This document shows, one piece after another, positions 1,115 through 15,042 of a stretch of 25,780 nucleotides of DNA. The position numbers and the translations under genes are program-made. Below the pieces are notes generated by a model, which was not told where the DNA came from, ran no database searches, and saw only the letters and a list, made by a program, of their open reading frames with translations. Position 1 is the first letter of the stretch; each line of letters starts with the position of its first letter. The stretch comes from a virus. The stretch lies in IMG/VR virus record IMGVR_UViG_3300005582_000088, positions 1 through 25,780 of that record; one strand, given 5' to 3'.

Positions 1115-2071
1115 ATGAAAAATCTACGTTATGTATGTGCTCAACCAAGGCTAGTTTACTATGCTTGGCAAGTTGAAGTTATGATCAATAACTTTATTAA
1201 GCACGGAATCAATCCAAATAATATTGACATTCTAGTTGCTTGGAATCCAAACGATGATACTAGTAAACCTGAAACTATAGAAATGTGGAATAAATTAGCC
1301 ACTCACTATAACATGGTTAGATTCTTTTTTTACGAAGATACTAGAGAAAAGCCAATTAATTATATATCGTCTATTAGACCGAACATAATTAAACAACACT
1401 TTAGAAAATACCCAGAGCTTCAGTATGAAGCGATATTTTATCATGATTGCGATATAGTTTTTACTAAAAAACCAGATTTTAATAAGTTTCTAGATGATGA
1501 TATATGGTATCTAAGCGATACTAATAGCTATATTAACTATGACTACATAATGTCAAAAGGTCAAGATGTTTACGATAAGATGTGTGAAATAGTAAAGATG
1601 CCTAAGATGATCCCTAAGCTCCTAAACGACCACTCAGGTGGAGCTCAGTATATAATTAAAAATATAGATTGGACTTATTGGGATAAGGTAGAAAGAGACT
1701 GTGAGAAGTTATTCTATGAAATTACACAACTAAATATTGAAAAGAAGACTGCAGATCCTTCTCACCATGAATTACAAATATGGTGTGCAGATATGTGGGC
1801 TGTACTTTGGAATGGGTGGATAAAAGGATTCGAAACTTTAGTAGTAAAAGAAATGGATTTTTGTTGGGGAACAGACTCTCCAAAGCGTTGGGAAGAAGTA
1901 ACTATATATCATAATGCAGGAGTGACTTGTGCATGTGGAGGAAAGTTTTATAAAGCAAATTATAGAGATAGCTTACCATATAATTTAAGTCTTAGAACTA
2001 AAGATGATAATTGCAGTCATTTATATTATCAAGAAATAAAAGAAGTTGAAGTAAAATCATGTCTAATATAG
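1115..2071 (+). CDS. Putative glycosyltransferase (GT-A-like, DxD)
   Basis: 318 residues from the ATG at 1115. That start is preferred because it follows the previous stop by 16 nt and has an A-rich leader; an ATG at 1076 would overlap the structural gene. Residues 107-116 read IFYHDCDIVF, a hydrophobic strand ending in a DxD motif (D111, D113) typical of metal-dependent GT-A enzymes. C-terminal features include several Trp and a Cys-rich stretch (around CACGG). No signal peptide or membrane segment is apparent, so it should be cytoplasmic. It is the first of three adjacent glycosyltransferase-like genes after a Thr-rich virion protein. I cannot name the GT family or the sugar donor. Confidence 0.7.
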   Translation: MKNLRYVCAQPRLVYYAWQVEVMINNFIKHGINPNNIDILVAWNPNDDTSKPETIEMWNKLATHYNMVRFFFYEDTREKPINYISSIRPNIIKQHFRKYPELQYEAIFYHDCDIVFTKKPDFNKFLDDDIWYLSDTNSYINYDYIMSKGQDVYDKMCEIVKMPKMIPKLLNDHSGGAQYIIKNIDWTYWDKVERDCEKLFYEITQLNIEKKTADPSHHELQIWCADMWAVLWNGWIKGFETLVVKEMDFCWGTDSPKRWEEVTIYHNAGVTCACGGKFYKANYRDSLPYNLSLRTKDDNCSHLYYQEIKEVEVKSCLI

Positions 2072-2811
2072 GAATAGCTATACTTGCTACAAATGCTTAT
2101 TTTGTTTTAGGAGTTCGTTTTATAAAGAAGTTTATTCATCATTATAAGGGAGACAAACAAATAGTATTTTATTTTTTTTCTGACACAGATCCTAGTCCAT
2201 TTATATCAGATAATATAGATGTAAGATTTTTTAAAACTAACCATGATAATTGGGTTGAAGGCACTAATGATAAATTTAATAGTATAATAAATTTAAATAG
2301 TTGTAATAGTGATTATCTATATTATTTTGATGCAGATACAAACGTATCAAGAGATTTTACAGAAGATTGGTTTTTGGGAGATCTTGTAGGAGGGGAACAT
2401 TTTGGTAATAGAACTTGGTTAAAAGACGGTGCGGGATTTGATAGAAATTCAATATCAAAAGCGTGCGTTCCTATTGATAGTCAATTGCCATATACTTATC
2501 ACTACGGTGCTTTTTTTGGAGGTAAAAAAGAATTAGTTATAGATTTTTGTAAGACTTTAATAGAATGGCAAGTAGAAGATAAAAAAATTCCTTATGAACC
2601 AGGATGTAATGATGAGAGTTATATAAATAAGTACTTTCATTTTAATCCTCCTTATACTGTACCATGCGAAAAATTTATGTTTGATATTAGTGATAAAGGA
2701 GGGATTGGAGAAACTAGAAATCCTAATTTAGAAATAGAGAAATATAAAATAGAAATGCTAGCAAATAAAGATTCTATATTTGATATAAGAGGAGGAATTT
2801 TATGCTGGTAA
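2059..2811 (+). CDS. Glycosyltransferase family 6 (ABO/alpha-1,3-Gal(NAc)-transferase-like)
   Basis: 250 residues, overlapping the previous gene by 13 nt. Visible GT6 hallmarks are YLYYFDADTNV (residues 86-96) with the DxD-type D91/D93, YHYGAFFGG (147-155) corresponding to the YYxGxFFGG segment of ABO transferases, and NDESYINKYF (184-193) corresponding to the HDESHLNKY acceptor/catalytic segment. A protein of about 250 residues without the vertebrate N-terminal membrane anchor fits the soluble bacterial and phage GT6 enzymes. Family members transfer Gal or GalNAc in alpha-1,3 linkage with retention; donor and acceptor cannot be told here. The neighbours suggest modification of a virion protein or of host surface glycan. 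Family call is strong. Confidence 0.85.
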   Translation: MSNIGIAILATNAYFVLGVRFIKKFIHHYKGDKQIVFYFFSDTDPSPFISDNIDVRFFKTNHDNWVEGTNDKFNSIINLNSCNSDYLYYFDADTNVSRDFTEDWFLGDLVGGEHFGNRTWLKDGAGFDRNSISKACVPIDSQLPYTYHYGAFFGGKKELVIDFCKTLIEWQVEDKKIPYEPGCNDESYINKYFHFNPPYTVPCEKFMFDISDKGGIGETRNPNLEIEKYKIEMLANKDSIFDIRGGILCW

Positions 2812-3425
2812 ATTTTAAAAATATTCCTTTTTACTATTTAAATTTTGAGGGATATACTGATAGGAAGGTTAGCATGGAAAAATTACTATCGTCTCTCAAT
2901 ATAAATAATTTAAGAATCTCAAACTCTTACCAATCAAATTTGAGGCAAGATAGGATTGCTTTTGGTGTAACTAAGCTTTTAAATACAGCAATAGAAATAG
3001 GAAAGTATCCTTTTATAATGATGGATGATGATATACAATTAATAAAAGAATTACCTGAATCAATATCCATTCCAGATACTGAAAGTCTTATATTATTAGG
3101 AGGGAGTTTATATGAAACTGGAGGTTACAAACCTAACATGTATTTAGAAGAGTATAATAAAGAGTACTATAGAATTTATTATATGCTATCTATGCATACT
3201 ATGGTTGTACCTAGTCCTAATACTGCAAATTTTTTATTAGAGTCTATAGAGCAATCATTTAATACCCATCAATTTTTAGATGTCGATTTAGCATTAAAAT
3301 CTAAAGAAAGACTGTATCTAACTCCAAAAAGTGGTCCATATTTTTATCAAGATAATTATAATGAGCCTGTCACAAGATTCTTATGGGAAGATGTTAAGGA
3401 TTCTTACATAGGTAAATATTTATAA
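2802..3425 (+). CDS. Putative glycosyltransferase, GT25-like
   Basis: 207 residues, overlapping the GT6 gene by 10 nt. The start is preceded by AGGAGG about 8 nt upstream, an unusually good Shine-Dalgarno match for this window. The N-terminus IPFYYLNFEGYTDRKVSMEK (8-27) resembles the opening strand and 'DR' helix of GT25/LPS-type transferases, and YPFIMMDDDIQL (69-80) has a DDD motif (75-77) at the place of the metal-binding acidic cluster. It is shorter than typical GT25 enzymes, with no membrane segment. It belongs to a three-gene glycosylation set; substrate unknown. Another GT-A family remains possible. Confidence 0.6.
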   Translation: MLVNFKNIPFYYLNFEGYTDRKVSMEKLLSSLNINNLRISNSYQSNLRQDRIAFGVTKLLNTAIEIGKYPFIMMDDDIQLIKELPESISIPDTESLILLGGSLYETGGYKPNMYLEEYNKEYYRIYYMLSMHTMVVPSPNTANFLLESIEQSFNTHQFLDVDLALKSKERLYLTPKSGPYFYQDNYNEPVTRFLWEDVKDSYIGKYL

Positions 3426-3428
3426 TAT

Positions 3429-3731
3429 ATGCCAATAGCTTATTCTCCATATACGATGTCTCTAAATGCAGAGACTACTATTTATCAAAATGAAGTAAGG
3501 TGTCGTGTAAATGAAAATGATTTTAATTATACATTGAATCCAAGTGCAAATAAAGCAGGAACTTCAGGTTCTTATATAGATGCTGTAACAGGATCAGACT
3601 TTCATCCCTATGCTACTACTGTAGGATTATATAATGATAAAGATGAATTATTAGTAGTAGGAAAACTTTCAACTCCGTATCCAGTACCTGAAAATACAGA
3701 TATGACGTTTGTAGTAAGGTGGGATAGTTAA
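3429..3731 (+). CDS. Small virion structural protein-like
   Basis: 100 residues, 3 nt after the previous stop. The central pattern VNENDFNYTLNPS, then YATTVGLYNDKDELLVVGKL, is a module I associate with C-terminal parts of structural (baseplate or fibre-like) proteins in myovirus genomes, including T4-like marine phages. Predicted all-beta, no signal peptide. It follows the glycosyltransferases and precedes a nuclease, still within the + strand late-like cluster. The exact virion location cannot be given. Confidence 0.6.
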   Translation: MPIAYSPYTMSLNAETTIYQNEVRCRVNENDFNYTLNPSANKAGTSGSYIDAVTGSDFHPYATTVGLYNDKDELLVVGKLSTPYPVPENTDMTFVVRWDS

Positions 3732-3741
3732 AAAATAAATT

Positions 3742-4197
3742 ATGAATAAATGGTTATATTTCGATCCTCTAGGAGTTACTAGAGAGTTTAATAGCGTAGA
3801 AGATTTTCCTCCACAAGCTGTAGGGTTTATATATAAGGTCACCAATATTGCCACCAGCAAATTCTATATAGGTAGAAAGGTTCTATATAACAATACTAGT
3901 AAAACATTAACCAAGAAGGAGATCGCGGAATGGGACAAACCTGGGCGCGTACCACGCAAACGAAAGATAGTTAAAGAGTCTGATTGGCTGTCTTACCATG
4001 GAAGTAATAAGCTTTTGAATCTAGAAAGGAAGGAATTCGGTGACGATATCTTTACTAGAGAGATTATTCAATTGTGTTTTTCTAAGAAGCAGTTAACCTA
4101 CTATGAAGTTTATTGGCAAATGTACTATAAAGTTCTACATATAGATTCATACAACGATAATATCCAAGGCAGATTTTACAGAAAAGATGTACAATAA
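3742..4197 (+). CDS. GIY-YIG endonuclease (Seg/homing-like)
   Basis: 151 residues. GFIYKVTNI (28-36) and FYIGRK (41-46) give the GIY and YIG elements. A basic stretch with PRKRKIVKESDW and YHGS follows, then FTREIIQLC and YYEVYWQ (120-126) with E122 as a candidate catalytic Glu. This order is familiar from phage-encoded free-standing GIY-YIG nucleases of the Seg type. Such proteins nick or cut DNA and often spread as homing genes between structural genes. No separate DNA-binding domain is evident. It is the last gene of the + strand block, 10 nt after the previous gene. Confidence 0.85.
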   Translation: MNKWLYFDPLGVTREFNSVEDFPPQAVGFIYKVTNIATSKFYIGRKVLYNNTSKTLTKKEIAEWDKPGRVPRKRKIVKESDWLSYHGSNKLLNLERKEFGDDIFTREIIQLCFSKKQLTYYEVYWQMYYKVLHIDSYNDNIQGRFYRKDVQ

Positions 4198-5559: not shown

Positions 5560-6066
5560 CTACTTATCTCTTTCTTGACTATCAAAATCCTTTGGAGTAA
5601 CTGTCAAAGAATCTCCTAGTCTCTCTATAATCTCAATTGCAACTTTAGATGAAATCTCGAATCCCTCACGCTTAGGGTTTATCCTGTACCCGTAATTCTC
5701 TAGTTGCCTATGAACCTCCTCTTCTAGTCTTCTTGAATTAATACACTTGTATTTGTAGACAGAGAACCAAGGTGTTATAACTCCGGTTGCAGAATTAATC
5801 TCCTTTACCCTTTGATTAACACTTGTACTTGTCATTCCTATCTTACAGATACCAGGCATGGACTTGTTCACTAGAACGTAGACCCACTCAGGTTTTTTTA
5901 TACTTAGGGTAGGATCTAGTATTCCTTCACCATAGTAAGTTACCTCTTCCCATCCAGGCTCGTTACAAGGTGTGAGTGAAAAGGCCACAGCCTTTCTCAT
6001 CTTGTTAGGGTCTTCTCCCTCTAGCCTAACATAGTACTTTGTTTCTTCTAGTGTTATCCTCTTCAT
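5560..6066 (-). CDS. T5orf172-domain nuclease-like protein (GIY-YIG superfamily)
   Basis: 168 residues from the ATG at 6066 (2 nt after the preceding stop); a longer start at 6120 would run into the neighbour. The core EWVYVLVNKSMPGICKIGMT, then VNQRVKEINSATGVITPW and a helix RLEEEVHRQL ending in NPKREGFEIS, is the T5orf172/MUG113 pattern: VYVL..PG..KIG for the GIY-YIG-like strands, RxxELxxATGVP, and a Glu in EEEVHR. The domain is a GIY-YIG relative found in phage and bacterial proteins, presumed to act on DNA. No extra DNA-binding domain is visible. Confidence 0.8.
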   Translation of the reverse strand: MKRITLEETKYYVRLEGEDPNKMRKAVAFSLTPCNEPGWEEVTYYGEGILDPTLSIKKPEWVYVLVNKSMPGICKIGMTSTSVNQRVKEINSATGVITPWFSVYKYKCINSRRLEEEVHRQLENYGYRINPKREGFEISSKVAIEIIERLGDSLTVTPKDFDSQERDK

Positions 6067-6068
6067 AG

Positions 6069-6476
6069 TTAGAATATAATAAATTCTCCATCTTTCCAGA
6101 TAAGTTTTCCGTTTTCCCACACTTCCAAAAGGAATTTAGGCTCAGTCTCAAGCTCCTTTAGAACCTTTTTTATATATACCTCAGAGTACTTAATGTTAGG
6201 TTGGTTTTGTATACCGTCAGTAAATACAAATTTCAAATTAGAACCACCAGGTTTTAATGTAAGAGGGTTCCTCTTGAATGATTTAACTGGTGCGTATTTT
6301 TTTATTTCTATTACAATATTGGACTTTGTAGTTTCAAACTCAACGAGATCTCCACTTTTTAATTTGTTAACCCTTACCAAGAATGAAGAGACTGAGAGCG
6401 GAAAGGCTTCTGTATTTGACTCTTTAGTAATAATGCACCAACCGAATACTGTAAATAGCAATTTTCCTTTTTTCAT
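6069..6476 (-). CDS. Hypothetical protein
   Basis: 135 residues with an even mix of beta-prone and basic sequence, KSGDLVEFETTKSNIVIEI near residue 40, and a C-terminal VLEVWENGKLIWKDGEF-like beta hairpin. The N-terminus is mildly hydrophobic (LLFTVFGWCII) but too short and too polar on its far side for a confident signal peptide. It is spaced 2 nt from the T5orf172 gene, so probably co-translated. No family recognised. Confidence 0.65.
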   Translation of the reverse strand: MKKGKLLFTVFGWCIITKESNTEAFPLSVSSFLVRVNKLKSGDLVEFETTKSNIVIEIKKYAPVKSFKRNPLTLKPGGSNLKFVFTDGIQNQPNIKYSEVYIKKVLKELETEPKFLLEVWENGKLIWKDGEFIIF

Positions 6477-13178: not shown

Positions 13179-13193
13179 AACTTTTATTTTTTG

Positions 13194-13286
13194 TAGTCAG
13201 GACAGGATTCGAACCTGTATGAGAGATAACCATTCCTTTATTCTCTCTATCTGTTAATTAGCGTCTACCAATTCCGCCACCTGACT
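13194..13286 (-). tRNA. tRNA-Leu-like gene with irregular anticodon arm
   Basis: The acceptor arms AGTCAGG and CCTGACT are perfectly complementary. The D arm reads GCG-GAATTGGTAGA-CGC and the T arm ACAGG-TTCGAAT-CCTGT, both canonical. The GGTGGCGGAATTGGTAGACGC part is strongly leucine-type, and a 6-bp GAGAGA/TCTCTC stem could be the long variable arm. The expected anticodon stem does not form: after the D arm, TAATTAACAGATA contains T-TAA (anticodon UAA) but the flanks do not pair. Total 92 nt, about 7 longer than a usual tRNA-Leu. CCA is not encoded. It lies between two - strand genes, in their transcript. tRNA identity strong, function doubtful. Confidence 0.75.
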
Positions 13287-14100: not shown

Positions 14101-15042
14101 TTACTTATAAGATTCTACCTTTCTCAGTCCTGAATAGTGGCAGAGGTTTTCACTCTCTCTAATTTTTAAGAGCGTAAGCTCTTTTGCTTTAGCTTCTATC
14201 ATGACGTCTGCTTGTACACCGTACAGGTTAGGTAGGGCGTTTACATAATCAGAATGAGCCTGAGGTTTTATCTTATTATCAGATTCATGTAAAGCCTTGG
14301 ATTCTGAATAGTGTACTACAGGTTTGATTCCTTCTGGCCAAGTAGAAGCGGCAAGCCTAAGTGCATCCTCTTCTGACATAGGGTCCTTCTGACACTTATG
14401 ATGGTGATAATCAAACACTATAGGGATTTTGATTCTCTCATGTAGGAACATAAGATCCTTAACTGTATAAAGAGATTCCTTATCATCATTCTCTATAGTA
14501 AGCCTAGATCTTACAGACCGGCTAATCCTTGTAAAGTTCTCAACGAACCTCTGTAAGCATGCTGTCTTGTCTCCATGTGTACCACCCATATGAATGTTGA
14601 TCTTATTATAAGGAGTTCTAGAAAGGCCCATAAGATCCATAACCTTACCATGTAGTTCAAGGTCTTTGATGCCGTCTTCTACTACTTTATTTTTTGGACT
14701 ACTAAGAGTGGTGAATGGACCCGGATGCATACTTAGTCTTATGTTATGAAACTTAGCAAAGTTTCCAGCTTTTTTAAGTTCTTTTGCAATCTTCTTGTAG
14801 TCAGGTAGTGTCTCTAGATCAATAGTATTGCCCCAAGGTATCATGTCGCTACTCATCCTAAAGAATGATATTCCGTTCTGCCTGTTCCACTCTAAAATAT
14901 AGATAAGGTCTGATACGTTTTGAAGAGCCAATTGAGATTGATACCCAATCCCCTTTTGGTCTAGAGTGGCCTTACGCATAGTTCTATTAGTGGTTCTTCC
15001 AGGTAGTGACATACAAATACAAGCATAACCAAGATTATTCAT
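14101..15042 (-). CDS. uvsE: UV damage endonuclease UvsE (UVDE)
   Basis: 313 residues, normal family length. Conserved features: FFRMSSDMIPWG (60-71), SMHPGPFT (104-111), INIHMGGTHGDK (148-159), LTIENDD (181-187), IVFDYHHHK (208-216), VVHYSES (242-248), QAHSDY (261-266) and DVMIEAKAKE (279-288). Candidate metal ligands H106, H151, E184, D211, H214, H244, H263 and E283 are all present. UVDE cuts 5' of UV photoproducts and other lesions, starting an excision repair route independent of UvrABC. A phage copy would repair sunlight damage to its own genome, which fits an aquatic or surface habitat (inference). Leader AAATAAAAGTTATG. G+C somewhat above the neighbours. Confidence 0.93.
   Translation of the reverse strand: MNNLGYACICMSLPGRTTNRTMRKATLDQKGIGYQSQLALQNVSDLIYILEWNRQNGISFFRMSSDMIPWGNTIDLETLPDYKKIAKELKKAGNFAKFHNIRLSMHPGPFTTLSSPKNKVVEDGIKDLELHGKVMDLMGLSRTPYNKINIHMGGTHGDKTACLQRFVENFTRISRSVRSRLTIENDDKESLYTVKDLMFLHERIKIPIVFDYHHHKCQKDPMSEEDALRLAASTWPEGIKPVVHYSESKALHESDNKIKPQAHSDYVNALPNLYGVQADVMIEAKAKELTLLKIRESENLCHYSGLRKVESYK

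Follow-up and report, generated by a model that had tools for sequence, protein, structure and literature searches.

Introduction

The closest described relatives of the enzyme treated here are the glycosyltransferases of CAZy family GT6, that is BoGT6a of Bacteroides ovatus and the vertebrate ABO and alpha3GT enzymes. The sugar acceptors used by known GT6 enzymes are set out in PMC3961637, and in the accessible part of that source a bacterial GT6 of Parachlamydia with a DXD motif is metal-dependent, DXD accompanying metal dependence in this family. GT6 in two cyanophages has already been published (PMC3961637, same part) and nine records of named phages carry a relative, so that a phage GT6 is in itself not new. 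In some actinobacteriophages, a phage-encoded glycosyltransferase is known together with glycosylated virions (Freeman et al. 2023, as cited in PMC13313380); the accessible part of that account makes no mention of a Thr-tract rule, of phrog_4417 or of GT6. Poly-Thr tracts in prokaryotes and phages have been treated generally, in the accessible part of PMC6821194 without a link to phage glycosyltransferases, and the accessible parts of PMC9863714 and PMC7077304 yielded nothing on virion glycosylation. Among titles and abstract openings of the open-access literature, no description of phage Thr tracts with glycosyltransferases, or of a pairing of GT6 with phrog_4417, was found.

In the present study, an IMG/VR virus record of 25,780 bases was analysed; this whole stretch of DNA is called the window. 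An earlier note on it had reported the GT6 gene. That gene stands, and GT6 alone proved too narrow a story once the link between phrog_4417 and Thr tracts emerged: the Thr-rich protein, phrog_4417 and a third enzyme form one unit with it (Table 1), which was absent from the earlier finding. We consider it probable that the GT6 gene is part of a virion-glycosylation cassette whose target is the Thr-rich, putatively virion-borne protein.

Table 1. Features of the cassette and its borders in the window
Feature	Position	Strand	Evidence
Putative tail protein, Thr-rich and mucin-like, truncated at its 5' end by the contig border	1..1098	+	translation; tract composition; complete homologue L002 2397-3515
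phrog_4417 GT-A transferase, proposed Thr/Ser initiator	1115..2071	+	phrog_4417 profile, model, invariant DxD
GT6 glycosyltransferase (finding of the earlier note), proposed extender	2059..2811	+	Pfam PF03414 above cut-off; BoGT6a Z 24.3, ABO Z 23.8
Third cassette enzyme, transferase-like (phrog_24091)	2802..3425	+	phrog_24091 E 1.1e-11
100-aa ORF, far part of tail gene split by cassette	3429..3731	+	43% to immuto gp105 257-356, E 1e-22
SegE-like GIY-YIG endonuclease, right-hand locus boundary	3742..4197	+	Pfam PF19835 E 2.7e-24; 39.6% to immuto gp100, syntenic

Results

The GT6 ORF is intact by translation (250 aa, ATG at 2059, end at 2811), and its assignment to GT6 was borne out by profile, sequence and fold, which agree. 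The Pfam profile PF03414 (Glyco_transf_6) matched it with 40.3 bits (E 2.2e-10) over a gathering cut-off of 25; this profile was above cut-off in the window's own record and in 0 of 14 control genomes. The protein belongs to phrog_3317 glycosyltransferase in PHROG (E 1.3e-14), and phmmer against the PDB returned BoGT6a (4ayj, E 1.5e-10), bovine alpha3GT (from 5e-7) and ABO transferases (about 2e-6). The AlphaFold2 model (mean pLDDT 95.3, pTM 0.92) was aligned by VIA-align to BoGT6a of B. ovatus with Z 24.3 (rmsd 2.1, 213 aligned) and to human ABO transferases with Z 23.8, and all of the 50 rows listed were GT6 enzymes (GT-A fold). The ORF at 2059-2811 is a member of the GT6 family.

The three segments named in the earlier note (DxD, YxYGAFFGG and NDES-NKYF) are all present, as D91-A-D93 (FDADTN), Y147-HYGAFFGG-155 and N184-DESYINKYF-193. 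Residues D91, D93, G150, G154, G155, D185, E186 and S187 are invariant in 36/36 aligned viral GT6 proteins, as is K213; one further match (L178, 5001-5732) contains a stop codon and was excluded from the alignment. The DAD of the window aligns to the NAN of BoGT6a, so that the DXD/NXN metal/UDP site is present, and E186 aligns to the catalytic Glu, E192, at which the E192Q mutant chain reads Q. The alignment with the BoGT6a sequence ends at residue 201, short of K213, the candidate counterpart of the UDP-stabilising C-terminal Lys of BoGT6a (Lys231). Compared with BoGT6a and the vertebrate ABO and alpha3GT enzymes, the window protein is alike in profile, fold, position of the catalytic Glu and GG motifs; it differs from them in its identity of 22-25% in structure alignments, in its DAD in place of the NAN of BoGT6a, and in belonging to a phage cassette that also encodes a Thr-rich protein. 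YGAFFGG presumably resembles the GTB motif. Reading the donor sugar from it was dropped; residue 268 has no part in donor choice, according to the accessible part of PMC4202792.

The word rare, which the earlier note had applied to GT6 in phages, suits the named phages, where 9 of 50,697 records match; in IMG/VR, 396 stretches encode relatives. The named-phage matches belong to cyanophages and marine viruses, apart from a single faecal record and a single uncultured one. Two of these phages, P-SSM2 and DSL-LC02, carry the GT6 gene within a large sugar cluster that includes sugar-nucleotide genes, and no annotated virion protein adjoins it; in this setting a host-surface or other target is possible for them. 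The Prochlorococcus phage P-SSM2 shares with the window a GT6 with a DxD-type motif (FDVDMG in P-SSM2; 26.6% identity), but its gene lies among epimerases and other transferases and not, as here, beside phrog_4417.

In the window, the phrog_4417 ORF opens at a TTG at 1076, ahead of the ATG at 1115; it lies upstream of the GT6 gene and overlaps it by 13 bases. Among the 15 closest relatives of the locus, phrog_4417 stands directly before GT6 in 14, and the full order of a Thr-rich ORF, phrog_4417 and GT6 is found in 12; the exceptions are L006, which is cut, L007, whose tail protein is without the tract, and L008, with an unrelated neighbourhood. The complete Thr-rich gene is present on L002, a contig nearly identical to the window (99.1% over 4037 bases). 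The third enzyme of the window matched no Pfam family above cut-off, and in one of the eight members of group A5 (L012) a methyltransferase takes its place. A large polysaccharide locus was rejected, no sugar-nucleotide genes being found among the 21 window ORFs that were profile-scanned (of 79 listed).

The Thr-rich protein consists of an N-terminal domain (window positions about 1-495), a Thr/Ser tract (496-777) and a C-terminal domain (778-1095). Of the 94 aa of the tract, 67 are Thr, 13 are Ser and 9 are Pro; in L002 it is 86 aa long. Immediately upstream in L002 and L005 lie genes that match gp107 (76%), gp106 (50%) and gp109 (38%) of Flavobacterium phage immuto, which lie two genes on from an annotated baseplate wedge protein gene. 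Immuto gp105 gives a short match to the Thr-rich protein in its L002 form (47% over 34 aa, E 7e-5), and its C-terminal part is the match of the separate 100-aa ORF in Table 1; protein 517 of Mel-JY01 gives both matches too. These two gp105 matches indicate that, in the lineage of the window, the tract and the enzymes lie between two portions of a single tail gene. In immuto, annotated tail fibre and tail spike genes lie between gp105 and the GIY-YIG gene. None of the Thr-rich and tail-module proteins was named by PHROGs or Pfam profile searches. From the synteny with immuto we infer that the window Thr-rich protein is a virion (tail or baseplate) protein, and the tail module appears to point to Flavobacterium-type phages as the setting of the window phage. 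One Chitinophagaceae bin (L109) has a similar cassette.

The protein upstream of GT6 matches phrog_4417 with E 4.4e-63 over residues 18-325 of 331 aa (PHROG). No Pfam profile was above cut-off in 43/43 members of this family, and a profile search found no sequence relative among PDB sequences. An AlphaFold2 model was obtained from 43 sequences (mean pLDDT 95.1, pTM 0.93), and the top match in VIA-align was glycogenin (Z 15.6, rmsd 3.5, 229 aligned), followed by LgtC (14.8), Skp1 galactosyltransferase (14.4), UGGT (14.3) and LARGE1 (13.6), rows within 1 Z being counted as tied. Foldseek gave WbbM first (5.8e-9), UGGT next and LARGE1 in ninth place. The DxD keeps its two Asp unchanged in 43/43. 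By its model, phrog_4417 is predicted to fold as a GT-A transferase near glycogenin, LgtC and UGGT. Glycogenin and related retaining GT-A enzymes are its nearest folds (Z 13.2 to 15.6), but with 6-14% identity in the structure rows and with no PDB-sequence or Pfam profile match. Glycogenin primes glycan synthesis on itself, at Tyr, whereas the proposed acceptor of phrog_4417 is the Thr tract. We take GT8 and GT24 to be the family numbers of the glycogenin-related enzymes (GT8 is also given in one VIA-align row); on the question of GT8, the predicted fold is nearest to GT8 members, UGGT and others are close, and the lack of a Pfam profile extends to all 43 members. The plant Hyp/Ser arabinosyl- and galactosyltransferases, considered as possible relatives, were not among the structural matches listed, which is not decisive.

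In Chitinophaga, Pedobacter, Mucilaginibacter and Sphingobacterium, the phrog_4417 domain forms the N-terminal part of proteins of 480-580 aa. Such enlarged relatives were seen in L110, L113, L115, L118, L120, L123, L125 and L126 (Bacteroidota genomes), and the C-terminal part of the L110 protein matches Glyco_transf_7C (Pfam). Several of them stand near short GG-leader-type peptides and C39-type or LanC-like proteins, labelled by eye; in L123 one peptide has TTTTTT after GG.

A total of 142 phrog_4417 loci was collected (80 out of a larger number in IMG/VR, 53 from bacterial genomes and 9 from named phages) and scored for an upstream Thr run within 1500 bases, defined as 8 residues with at least 6 Thr and at least 7 Thr plus Ser. 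The run was present in 56 of 78 scored IMG/VR loci (at least 80 exist), in 7/9 named phages, in 33/35 Firmicutes loci and in 3/18 loci of the Bacteroidota set (L109-L126; nearly all Bacteroidota, L112 being titled delta proteobacterium). After clustering at 90% identity and with short tails included, the tract was found in 39/47 IMG/VR clusters, 8/9 named phages, 31/32 Firmicutes and 3/18 of the Bacteroidota set, leaving 8 IMG/VR and 15 Bacteroidota clusters without a nearby tract. Of the two named phages that miss the rule, 521B has PTTVAPTTV repeats, and in bIL285 (L024) a TTTTTT stretch follows the stop of the major head protein in the same reading frame. In 15 records the neighbour of phrog_4417 is without a tract; (ACN)8 is absent from the entire record in nine of these, and most are fragments. 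In L040, L041 and L007 the cassette is kept and the tract lost from the same tail protein. The Thr codons are mixed, three or four of the four being used in 94/99 loci. In L062, at about 2904, a Ser run lies in a + frame upstream of phrog_4417; it is probably non-coding, since a longer acidic ORF lies opposite on the minus strand.

The 35 Firmicutes loci hold 76 tracts of at least 5 Thr, all on the strand of the gene, 75 of which end at most 12 codons from the stop. At least one C-terminal Thr tail was found in 35/35 of these loci, at least two in 28 and at least three in 10. Profile scanning of 72 of the 75 tail-bearing proteins (start codon present, at least 80 aa) gave matches to many different families; the tails stand mostly on major tail proteins, of phrog_88 (22 members), phrog_7440 (7) and phrog_238 (6), and major head proteins, of phrog_10 (21), phrog_617 (11) and phrog_840 (6), some matching more than one family; Pfam concurs (Phage_TTP_1 22, Phage_capsid 20). 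Within one prophage, similar short C-terminal tails are borne by head and tail proteins that are unrelated and encoded kilobases from each other. Five further named phages with phrog_4417, namely Lacticaseibacillus R3.3, Enterococcus nattely, Enterococcus 4995_1, Staphylococcus RQ1 and Lactococcus CHPC836, have tails in 5/5, and CHPC836 has one on its capsid protein and one on its major tail protein. In phi9183, SA2 and TPWB06 (L025 3770-3889, L026 3688-3897, L029 3741-3923), the end of a head or tail protein gene holds a long tract in a shifted frame, and nattely and RQ1 have tracts at the same place; a frameshift would append the Thr tract to some subunits only. The occurrence of phrog_4417 with poly-Thr C-terminal tails on Firmicutes capsid and tail-tube proteins makes the tract look like a portable acceptor tag.

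As a control, phrog_88 major tail proteins were searched in 299 Bacillales genomes. Among the best 30 loci, a Thr run and phrog_4417 occurred only in the seed genome, both being absent in 29/29 others, and none of these 29 tail-protein loci without phrog_4417 has T5. In 397 other Bacilli genomes phrog_4417 was found once, and there the gene just upstream, a phrog_88 major tail protein, bears the tail. In four whole genomes, 14 of 19 (ACN)7 matches fell inside the phrog_4417 region, and DUF932 control loci had a tract in 0/13 scored (of 16). A blind scan with (ACN)8 gave at least 80 loci, of which 47 code Thr runs and 33 do not; among those listed, phrog_4417 was present in 7/47 coding loci vs 0/33 of the others, and it was the gene directly downstream in 5/41 rows examined. 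Thr runs away from phrog_4417 nearly all finish just before a stop codon, as the tags do. As background, 98/883 other ORF starts in phrog_4417 loci have a run within 800 bases, and in Firmicutes T5 lies within 150 bases of 36/312 other ORF starts.

For GT6, 80 loci were taken, 70 of which were scored, the other 10 having too little upstream sequence. A tract at most 2.5 kb upstream of GT6 was present in 20/31 loci with an adjacent phrog_4417 vs 1/39 without; the Fisher p of 8.7e-9 is too small, because the loci were not dereplicated. Of the 11 loci with phrog_4417 that lack the tract, 10 are one bog group by match values; L179, L183 and L189 of this group have a long repeat protein as their upstream neighbour, with IPT/TIG domains in L189 (Pfam). 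In the 597-kb virus record of L233 (4071-5747), phrog_4417 and GT6 are fused into a single 559-aa protein, encoded behind a Thr-rich ORF. This fusion suggests, as the strongest single sign, that GT6 works in the phrog_4417 pathway.

Discussion

The best reading of these data is that phrog_4417 would start O-glycans on virion Thr tracts and that GT6 would extend them. The phage makes a protein with a mucin-like stalk of Thr and Ser, putatively part of the tail or baseplate. The glycogenin-like phrog_4417 would attach the first sugar to Thr or Ser in the tract, with which it is associated across loci, and GT6, which has a DxD of the metal-binding type, may add an alpha-linked Gal or GalNAc to the first or a further sugar; the third enzyme or the methyltransferase may add more. 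The particle would in this way get a hydrophilic, possibly blood-group-like coat, by which the stalk may be stiffened, shielded from proteases or changed in its stickiness. As in the actinobacteriophages with glycosylated virions cited in PMC13313380, a phage-encoded glycosyltransferase is concerned. The link between enzyme and virion genes is given by gene order and by the tagged head and tail proteins, and in the window by synteny.

The earlier note had left the target open between host surface and virion glycans. The virion protein is now favoured over the host surface because of the gene order, the association of phrog_4417 with Thr tracts of capsid and tail proteins, and the natural fusion. 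It seems unlikely that GT6 acts on the host surface (LPS or capsule), for instance as a block to superinfection, with the Thr-rich neighbour being incidental. The sugar clusters of P-SSM2 and DSL-LC02 speak for such a role, as do the 39 of 70 scored GT6 loci without an adjacent phrog_4417, which also indicate that GT6 works in other settings too. In the lineage of the window, however, GT6 overlaps phrog_4417 inside a split tail gene, the tract tracks the neighbours of phrog_4417 (20/31 vs 1/39), and L233 has both enzymes in one ORF.

An exchange or mixing of the roles, in which the glycan is initiated on Thr by GT6 or the third enzyme and extended by phrog_4417, is highly improbable. Enzymes with a similar GT-A fold do take sugars besides protein as acceptors, LgtC (Z 14.8) being an example, but Firmicutes phages and prophages have phrog_4417 and Thr tails with no GT6 found by name search or profile, so that initiation there calls for another enzyme than GT6; moreover, the known GT6 enzymes use sugar acceptors, according to the accessible part of PMC3961637. 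The tracts could also be mere flexible linkers or repeat expansions, phrog_4417 and GT6 acting elsewhere, such as on DNA bases or a small molecule. Thr runs without phrog_4417 in the retrieved stretch, at 40/47 loci among the (ACN)8 matches listed, would fit this, as would the repeat-like difference in tract length between near-identical contigs (94 vs 86 aa). Against it stand the similar short tails on unrelated head and tail proteins kilobases apart in one prophage, the absence of tails from the 29 tail-protein loci without phrog_4417, and the mixed Thr codons (three or four of four in 94/99 loci), and we consider the linker explanation highly improbable.

Beyond the window, we see an even chance that phages of Bacteroidota and Firmicutes share a portable poly-Thr glycosylation tag, which phrog_4417 would recognise and glycosylate. 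Virion proteins with no relation to each other (capsid, tail tube, tail-tip stalk) would have gained the tract at the C-terminus or internally, sometimes only by way of a frameshift or stop-codon read-through, and extenders such as the ABO-type GT6 would finish the mucin-like coat; the Bacteroidota would use enlarged relatives in peptide gene clusters. These enlarged bacterial relatives fit, by a faint hint, a peptide-modifying family. If the Thr tract is the acceptor, genomes would predict which phages have sugar-coated capsids or tails, and on which proteins. The pair of tag and enzyme, if true, would be a handle for bacterial O-glycosylation, and an enzyme of the blood-group family finishing a mucin-like phage protein would bear on phage persistence in water and on antibody recognition.

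Some further features of the window were observed. The gene at 3742-4197 falls into phrog_447, which is labelled 'NAD synthetase', as is immuto gp100; Pfam gives a SegE-like GIY-YIG endonuclease, and the label of phrog_447 and gp100 looks like a propagated error. A T5orf172 (GIY-YIG type) nuclease-like gene lies on the minus strand at 5560-6120, a tRNA-Leu (cag) gene at 13193-13286, and a homologue of the UV-endonuclease UvdE at 14101-15042 (PF03851, E 1.4e-67).
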